From Candidatus Nealsoniibacteriota bacterium (lineage in GTDB: Bacteria > Patescibacteriota > Minisyncoccia > Minisyncoccales > GWA2-38-27), in assembly GCA_030616085.1 (NCBI GenBank), contig JAUWYA010000007.1, forward strand, positions 1 through 37,849: a stretch of DNA of 37,849 nucleotides. Reading direction: 5' to 3'. Below the pieces are notes generated by a model, which did no database searches, was not told the origin of the DNA, and saw only the letters and a program-made list of their open reading frames with translations. A program made the position numbers and the translations under genes. Below are positions 14,855-33,827 of the stretch, piece by piece. Positions within the stretch are counted from its first letter, which is position 1. Each line of letters begins with the position of its first letter.

Positions 14855-16399
14855 ATGAAAAAACTATTACTTGTTGATAAAAAGGATAAAGTCATTGGGT
14901 TTGAGACAAAAGAAAATTGTCATCAGGGCAAAGGAATTTTGCACCGCGCTTTTTCTGTATATATCTTCAATAACAAGGGCCAGCTTTTAATTCAACAGAG
15001 AAGCAAGTTTAAGCCATTGTGGCCTCTTTATTGGTGGGCACCCACCTGCTGCAGCCATCCTCGCAAGGGTGAAGGATATATAGATGCAGGAGAAAGAAGA
15101 CTGAAAGAAGAGCTTGGCTTTACTTGCTCTCTTAAAATGATTGATAAGTTCCAATATCAGGCAAGATATAAAAATGTTGGGTCTGAGAATGAAATGTGCG
15201 CAATTTTAATTGGGACGCATAGCGGCAAAGTAAAAGCAAATTCTAAGGAAATAGCTGATTGGAAATGGATTAATGTTAATAGATTGAAGGATGATTTTAA
15301 GAAGAATCCTGATAAATATGTTCCTTGGCTGAAAACCGGCTTTAAAAGATATTTAAAAATAAAAGAGAAAGAAGAAAAGAGTCAAAAGCAATTGGATTTA
15401 TTTTTAAAACAAACAGCAGCAATAGTTAATCCAGTGATTCAAGAACTTTTAGAATCATACATTGATAAGAAATTTCATAAACTTATTAATTATCAGGCAG
15501 CTACTGGCGGCAAAAGAGCAAGACCGGCTTTAACAATTATTTGTTCTAAACTTTTAGGAGGAAAAATAAAAGATGTTTTATATCCGGCAGCTGGGTTAGA
15601 GATTCTGCATAATTCTACTTTAATTGTTGATGATATTATTGACCACGCCCGATTAAGGAGAAAAAAGCCAACTACTTTGTTTAAGTTTGGCCAATCTGTT
15701 GCTGAATGTATGGGATTGGATTATTTAACAACTGCTTTTCAAGGAGCCAATCGTTCTACATCTCCAGTCGAAATTTCAGAGATTTTTGCTGGAACATTAA
15801 AAACAATTGTAGATGGTGAAATCTTAGATATTTTATTTGAACAACGAGGAAGACAAGAAGAACCATATATTGCTAAAAATCGCTATAACAGAATTACCAA
15901 TCAAGAATATTACAAAATGATAGCGAAAAAAACAGCTGCTTTGTTTCAATGTTGTTGTGAGGTTGGGGGGATTTCAGCTGGAGCAACAAAAAAGCAATTA
16001 AAAGCATTAAAAGATTACGGGTTTAATCTTGGCATGGCTTTTCAAGTTAGAGATGATATTCTTGATATATTCGGTAATGAGAAAAAGTTTGGCAAAAAGA
16101 TTGGAAAGGATATAGAAGAAAGAAAATTAGGCAATATTGTTATTCTTTCTGCTTTAACTGAACTTTCAAAATCAGACAAAGAAAAGATTCTTAAGATAAT
16201 TAGAAAGAAAGAGATTAAAAACAAAGATATTAAAGAAGCAATAAAATTAATTAAGAAAACGCGAGCTTGTGAAAAAGCTTGTGATTTGGCAGAGGAGTTT
16301 TCAGCAAAAGCCAAAGAGCAATTAAAGCTTTTGCCTCAAAATAAATGGAATAAATCTTTAGAAAATCTTGCTGATTTTGTAGTTCAGCGAGAAAAGTAA
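14855..16399 (+). CDS. fusion: type I isopentenyl-diphosphate isomerase (Nudix) + polyprenyl diphosphate synthase
   Basis: N-term HRAFSVYIFNNKGQLLIQQRSK...WWAPTCCSHPRKGE; C-term GGKRARPALTII, DDIIDHARLRR, DDILD. Confidence 0.92.
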   Translation: MKKLLLVDKKDKVIGFETKENCHQGKGILHRAFSVYIFNNKGQLLIQQRSKFKPLWPLYWWAPTCCSHPRKGEGYIDAGERRLKEELGFTCSLKMIDKFQYQARYKNVGSENEMCAILIGTHSGKVKANSKEIADWKWINVNRLKDDFKKNPDKYVPWLKTGFKRYLKIKEKEEKSQKQLDLFLKQTAAIVNPVIQELLESYIDKKFHKLINYQAATGGKRARPALTIICSKLLGGKIKDVLYPAAGLEILHNSTLIVDDIIDHARLRRKKPTTLFKFGQSVAECMGLDYLTTAFQGANRSTSPVEISEIFAGTLKTIVDGEILDILFEQRGRQEEPYIAKNRYNRITNQEYYKMIAKKTAALFQCCCEVGGISAGATKKQLKALKDYGFNLGMAFQVRDDILDIFGNEKKFGKKIGKDIEERKLGNIVILSALTELSKSDKEKILKIIRKKEIKNKDIKEAIKLIKKTRACEKACDLAEEFSAKAKEQLKLLPQNKWNKSLENLADFVVQREK

Positions 16400-16463: not shown

Positions 16464-16904
16464 ATGACAAAAAACAAAACAATTGAGATTAACTCAAAAG
16501 AACAATTTGATATTGTTGATTTAACTGATGAAGTTGCATCTTTTGCAAGAGAGAGCAAAATTAAAGATGGTTTAGTAAATATTCAAAGCTTGCATACAAC
16601 TGCTGTTGTTCTTGTTCAGGAAAATGAGCCGCTGCTTTTAGAAGATATTAAGAAATCTTTGGAAAGAATTGCTCCCCAGAACATAGATTATAATCATGAT
16701 GATTTTAGCAGAAGAACAGTGAATATGTGTGATGATGAATGCCGTAATGGCCATAGTCATTGCAAAGCAGTGTTTTTGCCAACATCTGTAACTTTAAATC
16801 TAATTGATGGCCAGATGCAACTTGGCACTTGGCAAAAGATTTTATTCATTGAATTAGACAGAGCCAGACCAAGAAAAATCCAAATCCAAATCCTCGGAGA
16901 GTAA
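16464..16904 (+). CDS. YjbQ/UPF0047 family protein
   Basis: LHTTAVVLVQENEPLLLEDI...GHSHCKAVFLPTSVTLNLIDGQMQLGTWQKILFIELDRARPRKIQIQ. Confidence 0.9.
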   Translation: MTKNKTIEINSKEQFDIVDLTDEVASFARESKIKDGLVNIQSLHTTAVVLVQENEPLLLEDIKKSLERIAPQNIDYNHDDFSRRTVNMCDDECRNGHSHCKAVFLPTSVTLNLIDGQMQLGTWQKILFIELDRARPRKIQIQILGE

Positions 16905-22338: not shown

Positions 22339-22406
22339 TTGACAAGATTGTTTGATATTGTTAGAGTAAAATTAGTTGCCGGGAGCTTTTCTCGGTTTTA
22401 ACAATT
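22339..22406 (+). promoter_or_regulatory. promoter-hairpin-boxA leader module, copy A
   Basis: TTGACA-N17-TAGAGT, hairpin CCGGGA-gcttt-TCTCGG, TTTTAACAATT. Confidence 0.7.
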
Positions 22407-22437
22407 GAATAATTTCAGAAATGAAAGGAGATACACG

Positions 22438-23910
22438 ATGAGTAAGTTTTATCGAAGAGAACTGCATTTTTTGAGAGGTTTTGATGGGAATCCTATTGCT
22501 TTTGATGTCGGGACATCCAGCGTTATTTATCTAGATAAGATTACTTATGCTATCTTATCTGGTAATTCAGAAATTGAAGAAAGTTTGTTTGTTCAAGAAC
22601 ACGGCAATATATTTCCACAAAAAGCAATAAAATCAGCATTTAGGGAATTGATTAATATGGGTATTTTATCTTCAAAACCTCAAGAAAAAGAAACATTTAC
22701 ACGCGTAAGTTCCGAAGAAACTACTATCGGTGGCGTTTCTTTTAATATCAGTCATCGGTGTAACATGCAGTGCGGGTACTGCTTTGGTGGCGGAGGTTGT
22801 TATGGAGGGCCGAAAACTAACATGAAGAAGGAAATTCTTGAAGCTGGAATAGATTATCTTTTTGCTAATTGTGGTGATTTGCCCTATTGTATAATAAGCT
22901 TTTTTGGCGGGGAGCCATTTCTTAATTGGGAAATGATGCGCTGGGGTATTTCGTATGCTCGATCTATTGCCAATCGGCGTAATGTTGAGATTGCGTTTTT
23001 TATAACTACCAACGGGACACTTTTGACAGAAAAGAGGTTGGATTTTCTTAATCATCAAAGGGTCAAACTGGTTGTTAGTATAGATGGACCGAAGGGAATT
23101 CATGACCAGGAAAGAAAGTTTATTGGAGGACTTGGGAGTTATGATGTTATTGAGCGTAACATAAAAATTATCCTTCAAAAATACCCAGGGATAAATATTC
23201 AAGCTCGTCCAACTATTACTCCAAGGTTTTGTGGAGAAGTTGAAAAGATATATCATCATTTTAAATCAATAGGGATAGAGAAAATGCATGCTCGTCCTGA
23301 AAGTAGAAGTGGCAATCGATTCGGGTTTTCAGTTGATGATTATCGATTATTTTCATCAGGCATAGAAAGTTTAACAAGAGCTATGCTTGATGCTTCTAAT
23401 AATGGTGAATATTGGGGGATAATAAACGTCTTGAAATTTTTGAATATGCTTTATTTTAGTGTAGTAAAGCATGATTACTGTGGTGCTGGAGTTTCGGTAA
23501 TTTCTATATCGCCAGATGGTTCAGTTTTTCCCTGCCCAAGATTTATTGGAGAAAAGGAATTTTTACTCGGAAATATTTTGACTGGTTTGAACAGCGACAA
23601 AAGATTTATCTTTTTAAACAATTCCGTTGATGACCGCTTAGATTGTCAAAATTGTTGGGCAAGGTATATTTGTGGAGGAGGGTGTCTTTATATGCACTGG
23701 ATTGCAACCGGTGATTATCAAAGGAACGATACTATGTGGTGCGAATGGACTCGGCAGTCAATCAAAACTGCCATTAAGGCTTATGCACAGCTTCAAGGTG
23801 GTGATAATGATAAGATGAAAGAGTTTTTTGTGCGGCATACGCCCTTATTATCAGATTTTGGCGAAGGAGCTAATGAATTACTAACCTCTATTTTAAATGA
23901 AAGGAGGTGA
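22438..23910 (+). CDS. radical SAM/SPASM peptide maturase
   Basis: CNMQCGYC radical SAM motif; C-terminal SPASM cysteines CGAGVS...FPCPRF...DCQNCWARYICGGGCLYMHW...WCEW; start at ATG after aaaggagatacacg. Confidence 0.9.
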   Translation: MSKFYRRELHFLRGFDGNPIAFDVGTSSVIYLDKITYAILSGNSEIEESLFVQEHGNIFPQKAIKSAFRELINMGILSSKPQEKETFTRVSSEETTIGGVSFNISHRCNMQCGYCFGGGGCYGGPKTNMKKEILEAGIDYLFANCGDLPYCIISFFGGEPFLNWEMMRWGISYARSIANRRNVEIAFFITTNGTLLTEKRLDFLNHQRVKLVVSIDGPKGIHDQERKFIGGLGSYDVIERNIKIILQKYPGINIQARPTITPRFCGEVEKIYHHFKSIGIEKMHARPESRSGNRFGFSVDDYRLFSSGIESLTRAMLDASNNGEYWGIINVLKFLNMLYFSVVKHDYCGAGVSVISISPDGSVFPCPRFIGEKEFLLGNILTGLNSDKRFIFLNNSVDDRLDCQNCWARYICGGGCLYMHWIATGDYQRNDTMWCEWTRQSIKTAIKAYAQLQGGDNDKMKEFFVRHTPLLSDFGEGANELLTSILNERR

Positions 23911-24588: not shown

Positions 24589-24619
24589 AAAAACAAGGAA
24601 TTTAGTTCCTTGTTTTTGT
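24589..24619 (+). terminator. hairpin terminator
   Basis: AAAACAAGGAAtttagTTCCTTGTTTT. Confidence 0.7.
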
Positions 24620-24646
24620 TTTAGCCATTATTTTATTTATGGTATA

Positions 24647-24730
24647 CCCTGTAGAGAAAATTTAACTGCCTTCGGTTCGGAAAAAAGAGGTTTTTTACAG
24701 AAAACCTCTTTGTTAAATTTCTTCTACGGG
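24647..24730. mobile_element. MITE-like element, copy 1
   Basis: TIR CCCTGTAGAGAAAATTTAAC / GTTAAATTTCTTCTACGGG, flanked by GTATA on both sides; empty site seen at 22319. Confidence 0.65.
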
Positions 24731-24844
24731 GTATAATTGGTTAAGGAAGAAAATAGATGTTTAGAATCAAAAAAGATGATAATTGAGAAAATTTTGAAAC
24801 AATTAACGCCGGAGAGAATAGAGAAAGAAATTAAGGCAAAAAAT

Positions 24845-27126: not shown

Positions 27127-28509
27127 ATGGAAAACGAATATATCAGATTAAAAGATGAATGGACCATCAGGGGGGCGGCAGAAAGATGGATACTTTTTAA
27201 TTTTAAAAAAGGTCTTTGCGAAGATAGATTCTCTATTTCTGAAAATGTGTATAGAATTCTTAAGCTAGCTACTGGAGAATTTACGGTTTCTCAAATTAGC
27301 ACAAAAATAGAGCTTGATTCGGCTCCGTACATTGATTATTTGTCAGAGTTAGGAGTAATTGAGTTTTTTGTAAAGCCGGATGTCAAGTTGCGACATTTCT
27401 CAGATTCTTATACTGGGAATAATTTTCTTGGGAGAATCATGTTGCATATTACAGGAAGATGCAATTTGGAATGTAAGCATTGTTATTTAATTGGAAGAGA
27501 ATGGGGAAAGGAGTTAGAATTCGATGAAATAGTTAATCTTATTCAGCAAGCAGTTGATCTCAATGTAGCATCGTTTAGCATAACAGGCGGGGAACCTTTT
27601 GTGCGAGAAGATTTGTTTGATATTTTATATGAGCTTGATAGACAAGAAATGAAAATAGAAGGCATATTTACAAATGCAACTATTGTGTCCGAGACACTTC
27701 TTGATAAGTTTGCAAAACTACAGGAGTTTCCATTTTTTGTAAGCATTAATGGTCCATTTACAAAAGTTCATGACGGATTTGTTGGTGCAGAAGGAAGTTT
27801 CAATCAATCTTTGAGGACTATTAGACGTTTAATAGATAGAGATATTAAAGTTTTTGCCAATACAAGTTTGAGTGTTTTCATCGATGATGATAAGGATATC
27901 GAGAATTTCTACGAACTTGTAAAGGAATTAAAAATTTATCGTTGGAGAGTAAGCAGTCCGTTTCTCGAAGGTAATTGGAAGGATAATTCTTTGAAATTTG
28001 GTATTTCTATTAGGAAAGAACTTCAAATATTTCTTAAGCTCATACGGCTTTGGTTGAAGGATGGAAAGCCTTTTGATTTGGAGCTTGGTCATATTTTTAG
28101 ATATGTAGGAGGTGAATATGCTCAGATGATTTACAATGAATCTGATTACGTATGTGATTATTTCAGAGAGCGTATTATTATTCTTCCTGATGGTAACGTG
28201 GGTGCTTGTCCGCTTCTTATTACTAGTCCTCATTTGGTAGGTAATATTCGGGATTTGTCTTTAAGAAAAATTTGGGGAAGTAATAAGATGCGTTATTATA
28301 AGGACTTAAAGATTCAAGATATTATAAAGGAAGAATGTCGTTCCTGTGCGAAATTAACTAAATGTGGACTTGGTTGTAGGGCCAATTCTGTGCTTATGGG
28401 AGGACAATATGAAGATATTGACTCGGAGATTTGTGAGATATCTTTGAGTCAATTATATGATGAATTTGAAGAATATTTAAAAGAAGTTGGTTTAATAAAT
28501 GGAGGATAA
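27127..28509 (+). CDS. radical SAM/SPASM peptide maturase with N-terminal PqqD-like domain
   Basis: PqqD-like N-term (FSISENVYRILKLATGEFTVSQIS), CNLECKHC, SITGGEPF, SPASM CRSCAKLTKCGLGCRANSVL. Confidence 0.9.
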   Translation: MENEYIRLKDEWTIRGAAERWILFNFKKGLCEDRFSISENVYRILKLATGEFTVSQISTKIELDSAPYIDYLSELGVIEFFVKPDVKLRHFSDSYTGNNFLGRIMLHITGRCNLECKHCYLIGREWGKELEFDEIVNLIQQAVDLNVASFSITGGEPFVREDLFDILYELDRQEMKIEGIFTNATIVSETLLDKFAKLQEFPFFVSINGPFTKVHDGFVGAEGSFNQSLRTIRRLIDRDIKVFANTSLSVFIDDDKDIENFYELVKELKIYRWRVSSPFLEGNWKDNSLKFGISIRKELQIFLKLIRLWLKDGKPFDLELGHIFRYVGGEYAQMIYNESDYVCDYFRERIIILPDGNVGACPLLITSPHLVGNIRDLSLRKIWGSNKMRYYKDLKIQDIIKEECRSCAKLTKCGLGCRANSVLMGGQYEDIDSEICEISLSQLYDEFEEYLKEVGLINGG

Positions 28510-30799: not shown

Positions 30800-31069
30800 C
30801 AGAGAGTTGTAGGTAAATATGTTTTTGAAGGAGGGATTGTAGGAAAAAAAGTAGAGAGAAATCCTAGAAAGTCTACTATATCTTCATCACCGGTATTTTC
30901 GTCATCGGATACAGTCGACCCTTCTTCTACTTTGCGTAGTAGGCGTGCTCAATAATAGATGATAGCGAGAAAACTAAAGGGCTGGATTTTTCAGCCCTTC
31001 TTTTTATTAATTGCAGTTATTGGTTTGATAGCTGTTTTTTGTTTTAGCCATTATTTTATTTATGGTATA

Positions 31070-31149
31070 CCCTGTAGAGAAAATTTAACTGCCTTCGGAA
31101 AGAAGAGGTTTTTTCACAGAAAACCTCTTTGTTAAATTTCTTCTACGGG
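31070..31149. mobile_element. MITE-like element, copy 2
   Basis: Same TIRs and GTATA flanks as 24647-24730. Confidence 0.65.
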
Positions 31150-31195
31150 GTATAATTAATTAAGGAAAAAACATAAATGTTTAGAATCAAAAAAG

Positions 31196-32188
31196 ATGAT
31201 AATTGAGAAAATTTTAAAACAATTAACGCCGGAGAGAATAGAAAAAGAAATTAAGGCAATTCAAGAGGTTAAACTTCCTCCAGAGCTTCAGAAGTGGGTG
31301 AAGGAGTATGAAAAAGTGGGAGATAGAGATGAGTTTATTTGGAAGTGGAGCTATATTGGTTTAAAAAAGCTCACATTGCCTAGCGTATCAAAAAAATATA
31401 GGAATTTGGTTTTAGAGGCTAAATTTATTAGTATTGTTCTAAATGTTCTACTAGATGATCTTGCCGACAAAAGGAAAAATAAAAATTTATTAGAGAAAGC
31501 TATTAATATATGTATCTTGCGGAATAGTGTCCAAAAAGATCTTAAATTAACACTTTTTGATAAAGAAGATCAAAGTTGTCTTGATTTAATTAGAGAAATA
31601 TGGCTTTTTCTGAATCGTACAATTAAGAGATTGCCCAGATATAAAGAATTCAGAGATATTTTTTTATACGATTATCAACAATTTCTTAATTCTGTTAGGT
31701 ACGGATATTTAATTAATAAAAATTTAAATTTAATCAATATTATAGAAGATCAAATTTACTCTTCTCATAATATGCAGGGGATGATAATGGGAACAATGGA
31801 TTTAATGGCTTCTCTTAAGTTTAATATAAATGAACTCGGACTTTTTAGAGAAATAATATGGCGGGCACAAAGAATGGGAAGAATAGGGAATTCTTTAACT
31901 ACTTGGAAAAGAGAGATTCTTGAAAACGATTTTTCAAGCGAAATTTTTGGCTATGCTTTAATAAATGGCATTCTTAGTCAAAAAGATCTCAGAAAAGAAA
32001 ATAGCGAGGAGATTGTCAAAAAAATAGAAAAATCAGATATCAAGAATTATTTTCTGAACGAATGGGAAAAGCGATATAAAGAAATCAGAGAGTTTAATAA
32101 AGAAATGAAATCTTTTAATTTTAAAGAAGTTCTTGAAGGATTAGAGAGTCTTATTGTAATGCATTTCTGTAGTGTAGGTTTTAAGTAA
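31196..32188 (+). CDS. class I terpene-synthase-like protein
   Basis: All-helical 330-aa protein with 87-DDLAD-91 and 232-NSLTTWKRE-240 (NSE-triad-like). Confidence 0.7.
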   Translation: MIIEKILKQLTPERIEKEIKAIQEVKLPPELQKWVKEYEKVGDRDEFIWKWSYIGLKKLTLPSVSKKYRNLVLEAKFISIVLNVLLDDLADKRKNKNLLEKAINICILRNSVQKDLKLTLFDKEDQSCLDLIREIWLFLNRTIKRLPRYKEFRDIFLYDYQQFLNSVRYGYLINKNLNLINIIEDQIYSSHNMQGMIMGTMDLMASLKFNINELGLFREIIWRAQRMGRIGNSLTTWKREILENDFSSEIFGYALINGILSQKDLRKENSEEIVKKIEKSDIKNYFLNEWEKRYKEIREFNKEMKSFNFKEVLEGLESLIVMHFCSVGFK

Positions 32189-32216: not shown

Positions 32217-33827
32217 ATGTTTATATATCAAGTTTTGGCATTTTTAATAATAATCTTAGGATTGTTGCTGGCAATCTGGGTTTTTTCCGCTGATAGAAAA
32301 TCAAAAATCAACAGGATATTTTCCTTATTCACTCTTTCATTTCTTTTATGGGCACCCTTGCCTTATTTTTTTAATCTATCTAGTTTGTCTTCTGTTGCTT
32401 TATATTTAGTAAGATTTGGTTATGGAACAGTGTCTATTTTTTTAGTTGCGTTTTATTTTTTGGCGACATATTTTCCTCGGATAGAAAAGAGATACCCGAT
32501 TTTAGAAAAAACCGCGCTTATTATAGGAATAGGTTTTGCTTTCATTTCAATTTTTACAAATATAATTGTAGAGAATGTAGAAATTACTAAATGGGGGGTA
32601 AATCCTCTTTTCGGGATAGGAAAAATTCCTTATTTTGGTTCAGTATTCTTCCTGGCTTTAATAAGTATGGGTTTGTTGTTCAAAAAATATTTTTCCCTTT
32701 CCAAAGAAGAAAAACTTAAAATTCAGTACGTTTTTATTGGATTGATACTATTTGTAATCCCAAATATCATTTTTAATGTAATATTTCCTTTCATAGGAAG
32801 AACAAGCCAAGTTCAATATTATCCTTTTGGTAATTACTCTGCTATTTTTCTTTTAGGTTTTACAGCATATGCAATTGTAAAACGAGAGTTATTTAATATT
32901 AGGGTTGTTCTTACCGCTTTGTTGGTTAGCTCAATTGCTATTTTATTAGGTTTAGATATTTTCGTATTTACAACAGAATTGATGTTTCAGCTCTATAAGG
33001 GTTTAGTTTTGGTTGCTTTCATTTATTTCGGGTATTTGCTTATAAGAAGTGTGTTGAAAGAGATTGAGATGAGAGAGAGAATTAAAAAAGCATATGATAT
33101 AGAGAAGAAAGCGCGTAAGCAGATAGAGGAGCTTACTGAAGCAAAGACCCAGTTTATTATGGCTACTCAGCATCATTTAAGAACTCCTCTAACTTCAATG
33201 ATAGGTTTTTTGGATTTACTTTTTGGAGGAACTTATGGAAAAATTCCTGCTAAAATTAAACAATCCCTTTTGAAGTTTGAATCATCAACTAAAAGATTAA
33301 TGAGAGTAGTTAATGAGCTGTTAGATATTTCCCAATTTCAATTAGGCAAGGAGGTTGTTTCTCTTAATCCAGGCACTGACTTGTCTCTTATCTTAAAAGA
33401 AGTAATAGAAGAGCTTCAGTTTGAAGTGGAATACAGGGATCTTTATCTTAAGTTCCAGAAAATAGGAAAAATCCCAAAAATAAAGGCAGATTCTGAAAAA
33501 CTTAAAGTAGGTTTGTTTAATATTGTTGATAATGCTATAAAATACACTCGTAAGGGAGGAGTAACAGTTGTTTTACAAAAGGTAGGAGCTAATGTTCGGA
33601 TTTCTATTAAGGATACTGGCATTGGTCTTGATCCGGAAAAAGCAAAAACATTATTCAAGTCAGCTTTTGTAAGAGGCAAAGAGGCAAAAAAGGTTCATGG
33701 GTTTGGAAGAGGCATAGGAGTATATATCACCGGTCATATTATTAAAGCCCATCATGGTAAAATCTGGGCAGAGTCAGAAGGAGAGAACAAGGGAAGCACA
33801 TTCTTTATTGATTTGCCGGTTGGGTAG
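32217..33827 (+). CDS. 7TM-sensor histidine kinase
   Basis: Seven TM N-terminus, HisKA QHHLRTPLTSMIGFLDLL, HATPase NIVDNAIKYTRKGG, DTGIGLD, GFGRGIGVYI. Confidence 0.93.
   Translation: MFIYQVLAFLIIILGLLLAIWVFSADRKSKINRIFSLFTLSFLLWAPLPYFFNLSSLSSVALYLVRFGYGTVSIFLVAFYFLATYFPRIEKRYPILEKTALIIGIGFAFISIFTNIIVENVEITKWGVNPLFGIGKIPYFGSVFFLALISMGLLFKKYFSLSKEEKLKIQYVFIGLILFVIPNIIFNVIFPFIGRTSQVQYYPFGNYSAIFLLGFTAYAIVKRELFNIRVVLTALLVSSIAILLGLDIFVFTTELMFQLYKGLVLVAFIYFGYLLIRSVLKEIEMRERIKKAYDIEKKARKQIEELTEAKTQFIMATQHHLRTPLTSMIGFLDLLFGGTYGKIPAKIKQSLLKFESSTKRLMRVVNELLDISQFQLGKEVVSLNPGTDLSLILKEVIEELQFEVEYRDLYLKFQKIGKIPKIKADSEKLKVGLFNIVDNAIKYTRKGGVTVVLQKVGANVRISIKDTGIGLDPEKAKTLFKSAFVRGKEAKKVHGFGRGIGVYITGHIIKAHHGKIWAESEGENKGSTFFIDLPVG

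Follow-up and report, generated by a model that had tools for sequence, protein, structure and literature searches.

Genes at the locus

The window, by which we mean the whole stretch of 37,849 nucleotides that was analyzed, comes from a CPR-like genome (G000) of 740 kb that is 98% complete. It contains a gene for a helical protein, P0001, followed on the same strand by a gene for a 7TM histidine kinase, in which we distinguished a sensor (residues 1 to about 220), a HisKA domain (309-375) and a HATPase domain (425-535). Upstream of this pair are a gene for a fusion of a NUDIX domain with a polyprenyl diphosphate synthase, a gene for a UPF0047 protein, and partial copies of the beginning of the P0001 gene (Table 1). 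The initial annotation had described P0001 as a class I terpene-synthase-like protein, and the open reading frame and both of its candidate metal-binding motifs lie where that annotation placed them.

Table 1. Coordinates of the features discussed in the text
Feature	Position	Strand	Evidence
NUDIX domain fused to polyprenyl diphosphate synthase	14855..16399	+	Pfam NUDIX 5.9e-18, polyprenyl_synt 2.4e-58
UPF0047 (YjbQ-like) protein	16464..16904	+	Pfam UPF0047 8.7e-33
Copy of the synthase upstream region and first codons (repeats D2-D4), matching 31036-31259	24613..24839	+	
N-terminal fragment of the synthase (22 codons) in a second copy, 95% identical, that runs into unrelated sequence	24776..24841	+	
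Synthase upstream region, duplicated at 24613-24775; imperfect inverted repeat seen by eye	31036..31195	+	
Class I terpene-synthase-like protein P0001, 330 aa	31196..32188	+	ORF with ATG start, family alignment, AlphaFold2, Foldseek
Aspartate-rich metal-binding motif DDLAD, residues 87-91	31454..31468	+	Alignment of 15 homologues
NSE/DTE-type motif NSLTTWKRE, residues 232-240	31889..31915	+	Alignment of 15 homologues
7TM histidine kinase, 536 aa, 28 nt downstream of the P0001 gene	32217..33827	+	Pfam HisKA, HATPase_c, sub-threshold HisKA_7TM

The P0001 family has conserved metal-binding motifs

The P0001 family comprises at least 15 CPR proteins that are 28-50% identical to P0001, and 15 full-length members were aligned. 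Five residues (D88, R229, N232, E240 and D245) were invariant in all 15 sequences, and position 236 was S or T in every one. Within the first motif, D87 was replaced by N in two members (D in 13 of 15) and D91 by E in one (D in 14 of 15). The family has the DDxxD-type first metal motif of bacterial class I terpene synthases, and the NSE/DTE pattern N-x3-S/T-x3-E is present in 15 of 15 members. The serine at the second NSE position, to which the initial annotation had drawn attention, is found in P0001 and, among its relatives, only in those from G175 and G176; most relatives have the more typical form NxxSTWERE.

Given how often it arises in shuffled sequence, the motif pair of P0001 alone would be suggestive and not decisive. 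A DDxxD/NSE pair separated by 120-170 residues appeared in 112 of 20,000 composition shuffles of P0001, and P0001 was the only one of the 18 window ORFs of at least 200 aa that had it. Judged from the sequences, conservation across the family is better evidence than the pair by itself.

A break in helix G with a pyrophosphate-sensor arginine and a C-terminal RY pair are common, not universal, in class I terpene synthases. The helix-G arginine was not conserved in the family alignment, and the RY pair was mostly replaced by Y or F followed by K or R. The lack of conservation of this arginine, together with the asparagine that two members have at the first aspartate, would fit a reading of P0001 as a catalytically dead class I fold acting as a prenyl-diphosphate-binding regulator. 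We regard this as very improbable, as all three NSE positions and D88 have been kept while overall identity fell to 28-50%.

Profile searches detected the family weakly. With P0001 alone, searches of Pfam, NCBIfam and PDB sequences gave chance matches only. The profile HMM comparison that the initial annotation had asked for gave a divided result: P0001 itself had no match to Terpene_syn_C_2 (PF19086) at E ≤ 10 and did not reach the curated cut-off, whereas 8 of 12 relatives matched this profile weakly at E ≤ 1 (best E, 1.3e-4). Among 12 family members examined, two matched Terpene_synth_C and one weakly matched SQS_PSY. An NCBIfam search with the whole family returned nothing, and the family profile found only Sat1646 among PDB sequences, at the NSE motif and with a non-significant E of 0.66-1.3.

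The predicted fold resembles that of terpene synthases

An AlphaFold2 model of P0001, built with 12 family sequences, was all helical, with a pLDDT of 89.6 and a pTM of 0.88. The DDxxD motif lies near the C-terminal end of the helix at residues 66-93 and the NSE motif near that of the helix at 211-242, and in bacterial class I terpene synthases the two motifs are placed likewise on two long helices. A break at residue 189, where there is no conserved arginine, falls in the presumed equivalent of helix G.

When the model was compared with the PDB using Foldseek, the first 15 of 15 matches were terpene synthases, as were nearly all of the 50 matches listed; the exceptions were the N-prenyltransferases DabA and DsKabA. 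The best match was tolypothrichol synthase (9kgb; E, 3.7e-5; TM, 0.60). TM scores were moderate (0.5-0.6) and rmsd was large. The all-helical class I fold that structure prediction was to look for is thus what the model has, at the level of a prediction. P0001 shares with tolypothrichol synthase and with Sat1646 (7e4n; PF19086) an all-helical predicted fold, corresponding long helices that carry DDxxD and NSE, and its length. It differs from these proteins in having no sequence match to the class, no conserved helix-G sensor arginine and no RY pair. A trans-prenyl synthase identity was rejected, because there was no match to polyprenyl_synt (PF00348) in the P0001 family and the fold neighbors are cyclases.

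Distribution of the family

Of 100 near genomes, 10 had a family match, as did 14 of the 247 genomes of the order; these numbers take in the genome of the window and a few partial matches. Convincing matches were present in three more genomes of the phylum, and the match in G595 was weak. There was no family member in the 13 other searched genomes of the GTDB family to which the genome of the window belongs, so the P0001 gene is patchily distributed. Scanning the genome contigs added one truncated relative (L003). A match in G159 (L029) was dropped as a chance match; its frame looks like that of a restriction/modification protein.

Prenyl-diphosphate enzymes accompany the family

Polyprenyl-diphosphate synthase was found in 16 of 16 genomes with the P0001 family and in 5 of 20 genomes without it (Fisher p = 3e-6). 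The set of 16 includes G062, where the family is represented by no more than an N-terminal piece at the end of a contig. Like P0001, bacterial class I terpene synthases show gene linkage to a prenyl diphosphate synthase. Genes adjoining the relatives of P0001 encode an isomerase, a prenyl synthase, thiolase, HMG-CoA synthase or geranylgeranyl reductase and, in G075, a methyltransferase.

The fusion gene, 15 kb from the P0001 gene, is the only polyprenyl_synt match in the genome of the window. From its sequence and from adjacency, the NUDIX domain reads as a type 1 IPP isomerase, and the fusion likely supplies the substrate of P0001. In G072, genes for the fusion, UPF0047, the synthase, the kinase and a response regulator follow one another directly, with UPF0047 between the isomerase-prenyl synthase fusion and the terpene synthase, and against this arrangement the window looks like the G072 operon in split form. 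UPF0047 also adjoins the prenyl synthase in G034, G035 and G121. The genome of the window keeps the IPP isomerase and prenyl synthase, but searches of it for IspG, HMG-CoA synthase and GHMP kinase gave no match, and uptake may thus be the source of its isoprenoid precursors. Mevalonate-pathway genes are known in CPR (PMC11052028).

Together, the motifs, the fold, the weak Terpene_syn_C_2 matches of the relatives and the linkage to polyprenyl synthase and IPP isomerase largely bear out the initial description of P0001 as a class I terpene-synthase-like protein.

A clade of 7TM kinases is coupled to prenyl and terpene enzymes

In the 13 loci measured, the kinase gene was directly downstream of the synthase gene, with a gap of -1 to 28 nt. 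Distances among the synthases correlated with distances among the sensors (Mantel r = 0.60, p = 0.0004). Of 29 sensors placed in a tree, the 13 synthase-linked sensors, three UbiA-linked sensors and one unplaced sensor formed one clade (support 100/99), and more distant 7TM kinases with other neighbors fell outside it. G265, a 2-Mb genome, was an exception in that the kinases flanking its synthase were outside the clade. The P0001 family is a genuine family, new and divergent, of class I terpene-synthase-like proteins in CPR. Its conserved 7TM kinase partner was unexpected and had gone unremarked in the initial annotation. Both the occurrence of the family in CPR and its coupling to the kinase set it apart from known class I terpene synthases.

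We searched the order for kinases with a profile built from the linked kinases and then read the upstream genes, which were assigned by Pfam at some loci and by sequence reading at others. A prenyl/terpene-type gene was upstream in 31 of the 35 strongest informative sensor-clade loci. The upstream gene encoded the synthase described here at 12 loci and a UbiA prenyltransferase or UbiA fusion at 17 (Pfam was used to test ten of the UbiA calls, the others being read off the alignment), with a terpene synthase in G057, a helical DDxxD protein in G129, and other genes at four. For loci absent from the sensor profile the proportion was 17 of 21, and for the outgroup of distant 7TM kinases it was 0 of 9. 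The UbiA and kinase genes mostly overlap by 4 nt, which indicates translational coupling. The UbiA-type prenyltransferases belong to a membrane family unrelated in sequence to P0001, and in other genomes of the order they have the same gene position, next to the same kinase clade.

The G057 terpene synthase (L115:4951-5889) is a different protein, of 312 aa, that scored above the Terpene_syn_C_2 cut-off (E, 1e-12); its gene lies between a geranylgeranyl-reductase-like gene and a kinase of the same clade. Helical proteins with LDDLFDE/LDDLLDE precede the kinase in G089 (L132:4908-5795) and G129 (L119:4852-5874). Neither had a Pfam match, and they are possibly another class I enzyme.

The sensor domain (32217-32936) was predicted by AlphaFold2 (pLDDT 88) to be a 7TM bundle with a beta hairpin between helices. 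Foldseek gave only marginal matches to GPCRs (best E, 1.4e-3; TM, about 0.5), and as these were marginal we claim no ligand class from them. More distant 7TM kinase/response-regulator pairs of the order (L074-L082) adjoin genes for other small-molecule enzymes, which read as SpeD-like, ThiF-like, nitroreductase and CoA-ligase-like, and these neighbors suggest a wider enzyme-sensor pattern.

Proposed activity of P0001 and its relation to the kinase

With motifs and predicted fold computed, we infer activity, substrate length and product as follows. It is highly probable that P0001 acts on a prenyl diphosphate, and probable, with somewhat less confidence, that it is, strictly speaking, a terpene synthase. 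The most likely source of the prenyl diphosphate is the isomerase-prenyl synthase fusion. Judging from its homology in fold and motifs, P0001 would bind this substrate with Mg2+ through DDxxD (D87/D88/D91) and N232/T236/E240, ionize it, and release a terpenoid that could be cyclic or linear.

Another reaction that such a fold could carry out is prenylation of a small molecule without cyclization, as by DabA (6vkz) and DsKabA (9m1w). These two share their fold class with P0001 and are among its Foldseek matches, UbiA prenyltransferases hold the same gene position in other genomes, and the pyrophosphate-sensor arginine is not conserved. We nevertheless think a prenyltransferase improbable, since DabA and DsKabA rank below true cyclases, no conserved gene for an acceptor substrate was found near the family, and the same position in G057 is also held by a protein above the Terpene_syn_C_2 cut-off.

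If P0001 is a terpene synthase, the 7TM kinase, which is translationally coupled to it, would most likely have the terpenoid as its ligand or as a bound lipid cofactor, and the two proteins would form a synthase-receptor signaling unit. The gene linkage was computed, and the ligand is what we infer. The strongest hint comes from gene order: unrelated prenyl-diphosphate enzymes precede the same sensor clade, and the feature that they would share is the chemical class of the product. Operon linkage of synthase and kinase is not proof of product sensing, and we put the chance that the product of P0001 is the signal of the kinase at about even. For the combined reading, in which P0001 is a divergent class I terpene synthase and the coupled kinase senses what it makes, our estimate is just above even and is weighted towards the enzyme.

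P0001 might instead be an ordinary divergent terpene synthase that makes a membrane or defensive terpenoid, with a kinase that regulates production or monitors the state of the membrane and to which the product is no signal. The fold, the motifs and the prenyl synthase linkage account for the enzyme alone, and distant 7TM kinases of the same order adjoin many unrelated genes. However, the kinase clade tracks at least three unrelated kinds of prenyl/terpene enzymes, often with overlaps of 1-4 nt, and this favors a functional tie to the product. We hold the ordinary synthase to be unlikely, if still a serious alternative.

The loci also resemble comQXPA of Bacillus, where a prenyl enzyme gene is upstream of a gene for a multi-TM kinase, followed by a response regulator gene (PMC4008528), as is sometimes the case in the P0001 family. 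By analogy, a ComQ-type isoprenyl transferase would modify a small peptide sensed by the kinase. The gap of -1 to 28 nt contains no conserved alternative-frame ORF at the junction, and P0001 and its family lack a PF00348 match; such a system is strongly disfavored. The family loci have neither a polyprenyl_synt-type ComQ nor a ComX gene between enzyme and kinase. A ComX-like peptide gene was sought there and was not found; there was no room for one and no conserved small ORF.

Pairing of an autoinducer synthase gene with a membrane histidine kinase gene is known from the CqsA/CqsS and LqsA/LqsS quorum-sensing systems, and the adjacency at the P0001 loci is alike. CqsA and LqsA are PLP-dependent enzymes that make hydroxyketones. 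The enzyme class differs: the P0001 pair has a prenyl/terpene enzyme and a putative receptor for its product. More generally, and tentatively, CPR bacteria of the order may have synthase-receptor cassettes that are interchangeable. The enzyme of a cassette, whether a terpene synthase, a helical DDxxD protein or a UbiA prenyltransferase, would produce an isoprenoid that serves as an autoinducer or as a membrane-soluble cue, and a dedicated 7TM histidine kinase would read it.

In the literature searched we found no report of a characterized terpene synthase in CPR, and the terms tried brought up no paper that connects terpene synthases to sensor histidine kinases. The statement in the initial annotation that CPR bacteria are not known for terpene cyclization was nearly right, the qualification being one Saccharibacteria genome in a soil metagenome study for which software called a terpene cluster (PMC7298704). 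A new terpene synthase family in reduced CPR genomes would widen the range of bacterial terpene makers, and its strict pairing with one sensor-kinase clade offers a directly testable case for terpenoid signaling or sensing. If the cassette reading is true, there would be terpenoid-based signaling in ultra-small bacteria that are probably host-dependent.

Duplications and other features of the window

There is a second copy of the 5' region and first 22 codons of the synthase gene 6.4 kb upstream of the gene. The N-terminal fragment is a probable pseudogene remnant, and N-terminal pieces of a similar kind occur in G075 and at the contig end in G062. Judged by eye, the inverted repeat upstream of the synthase has an attC-like look. 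Direct repeats that are 90-97% alike (26965-27117/29708-29860; 25723-25763/29650-29690; 25757-25790/31013-31046) sit in intergenic spacers between 24.6 and 31 kb, giving this part of the window a cassette-like appearance. Two radical SAM proteins (22405-23910 and 27127-28509), one of them with SPASM, are encoded in the window with a cupin and several methyltransferases nearby, and these genes may belong to a locus for peptide modification or for a natural product.
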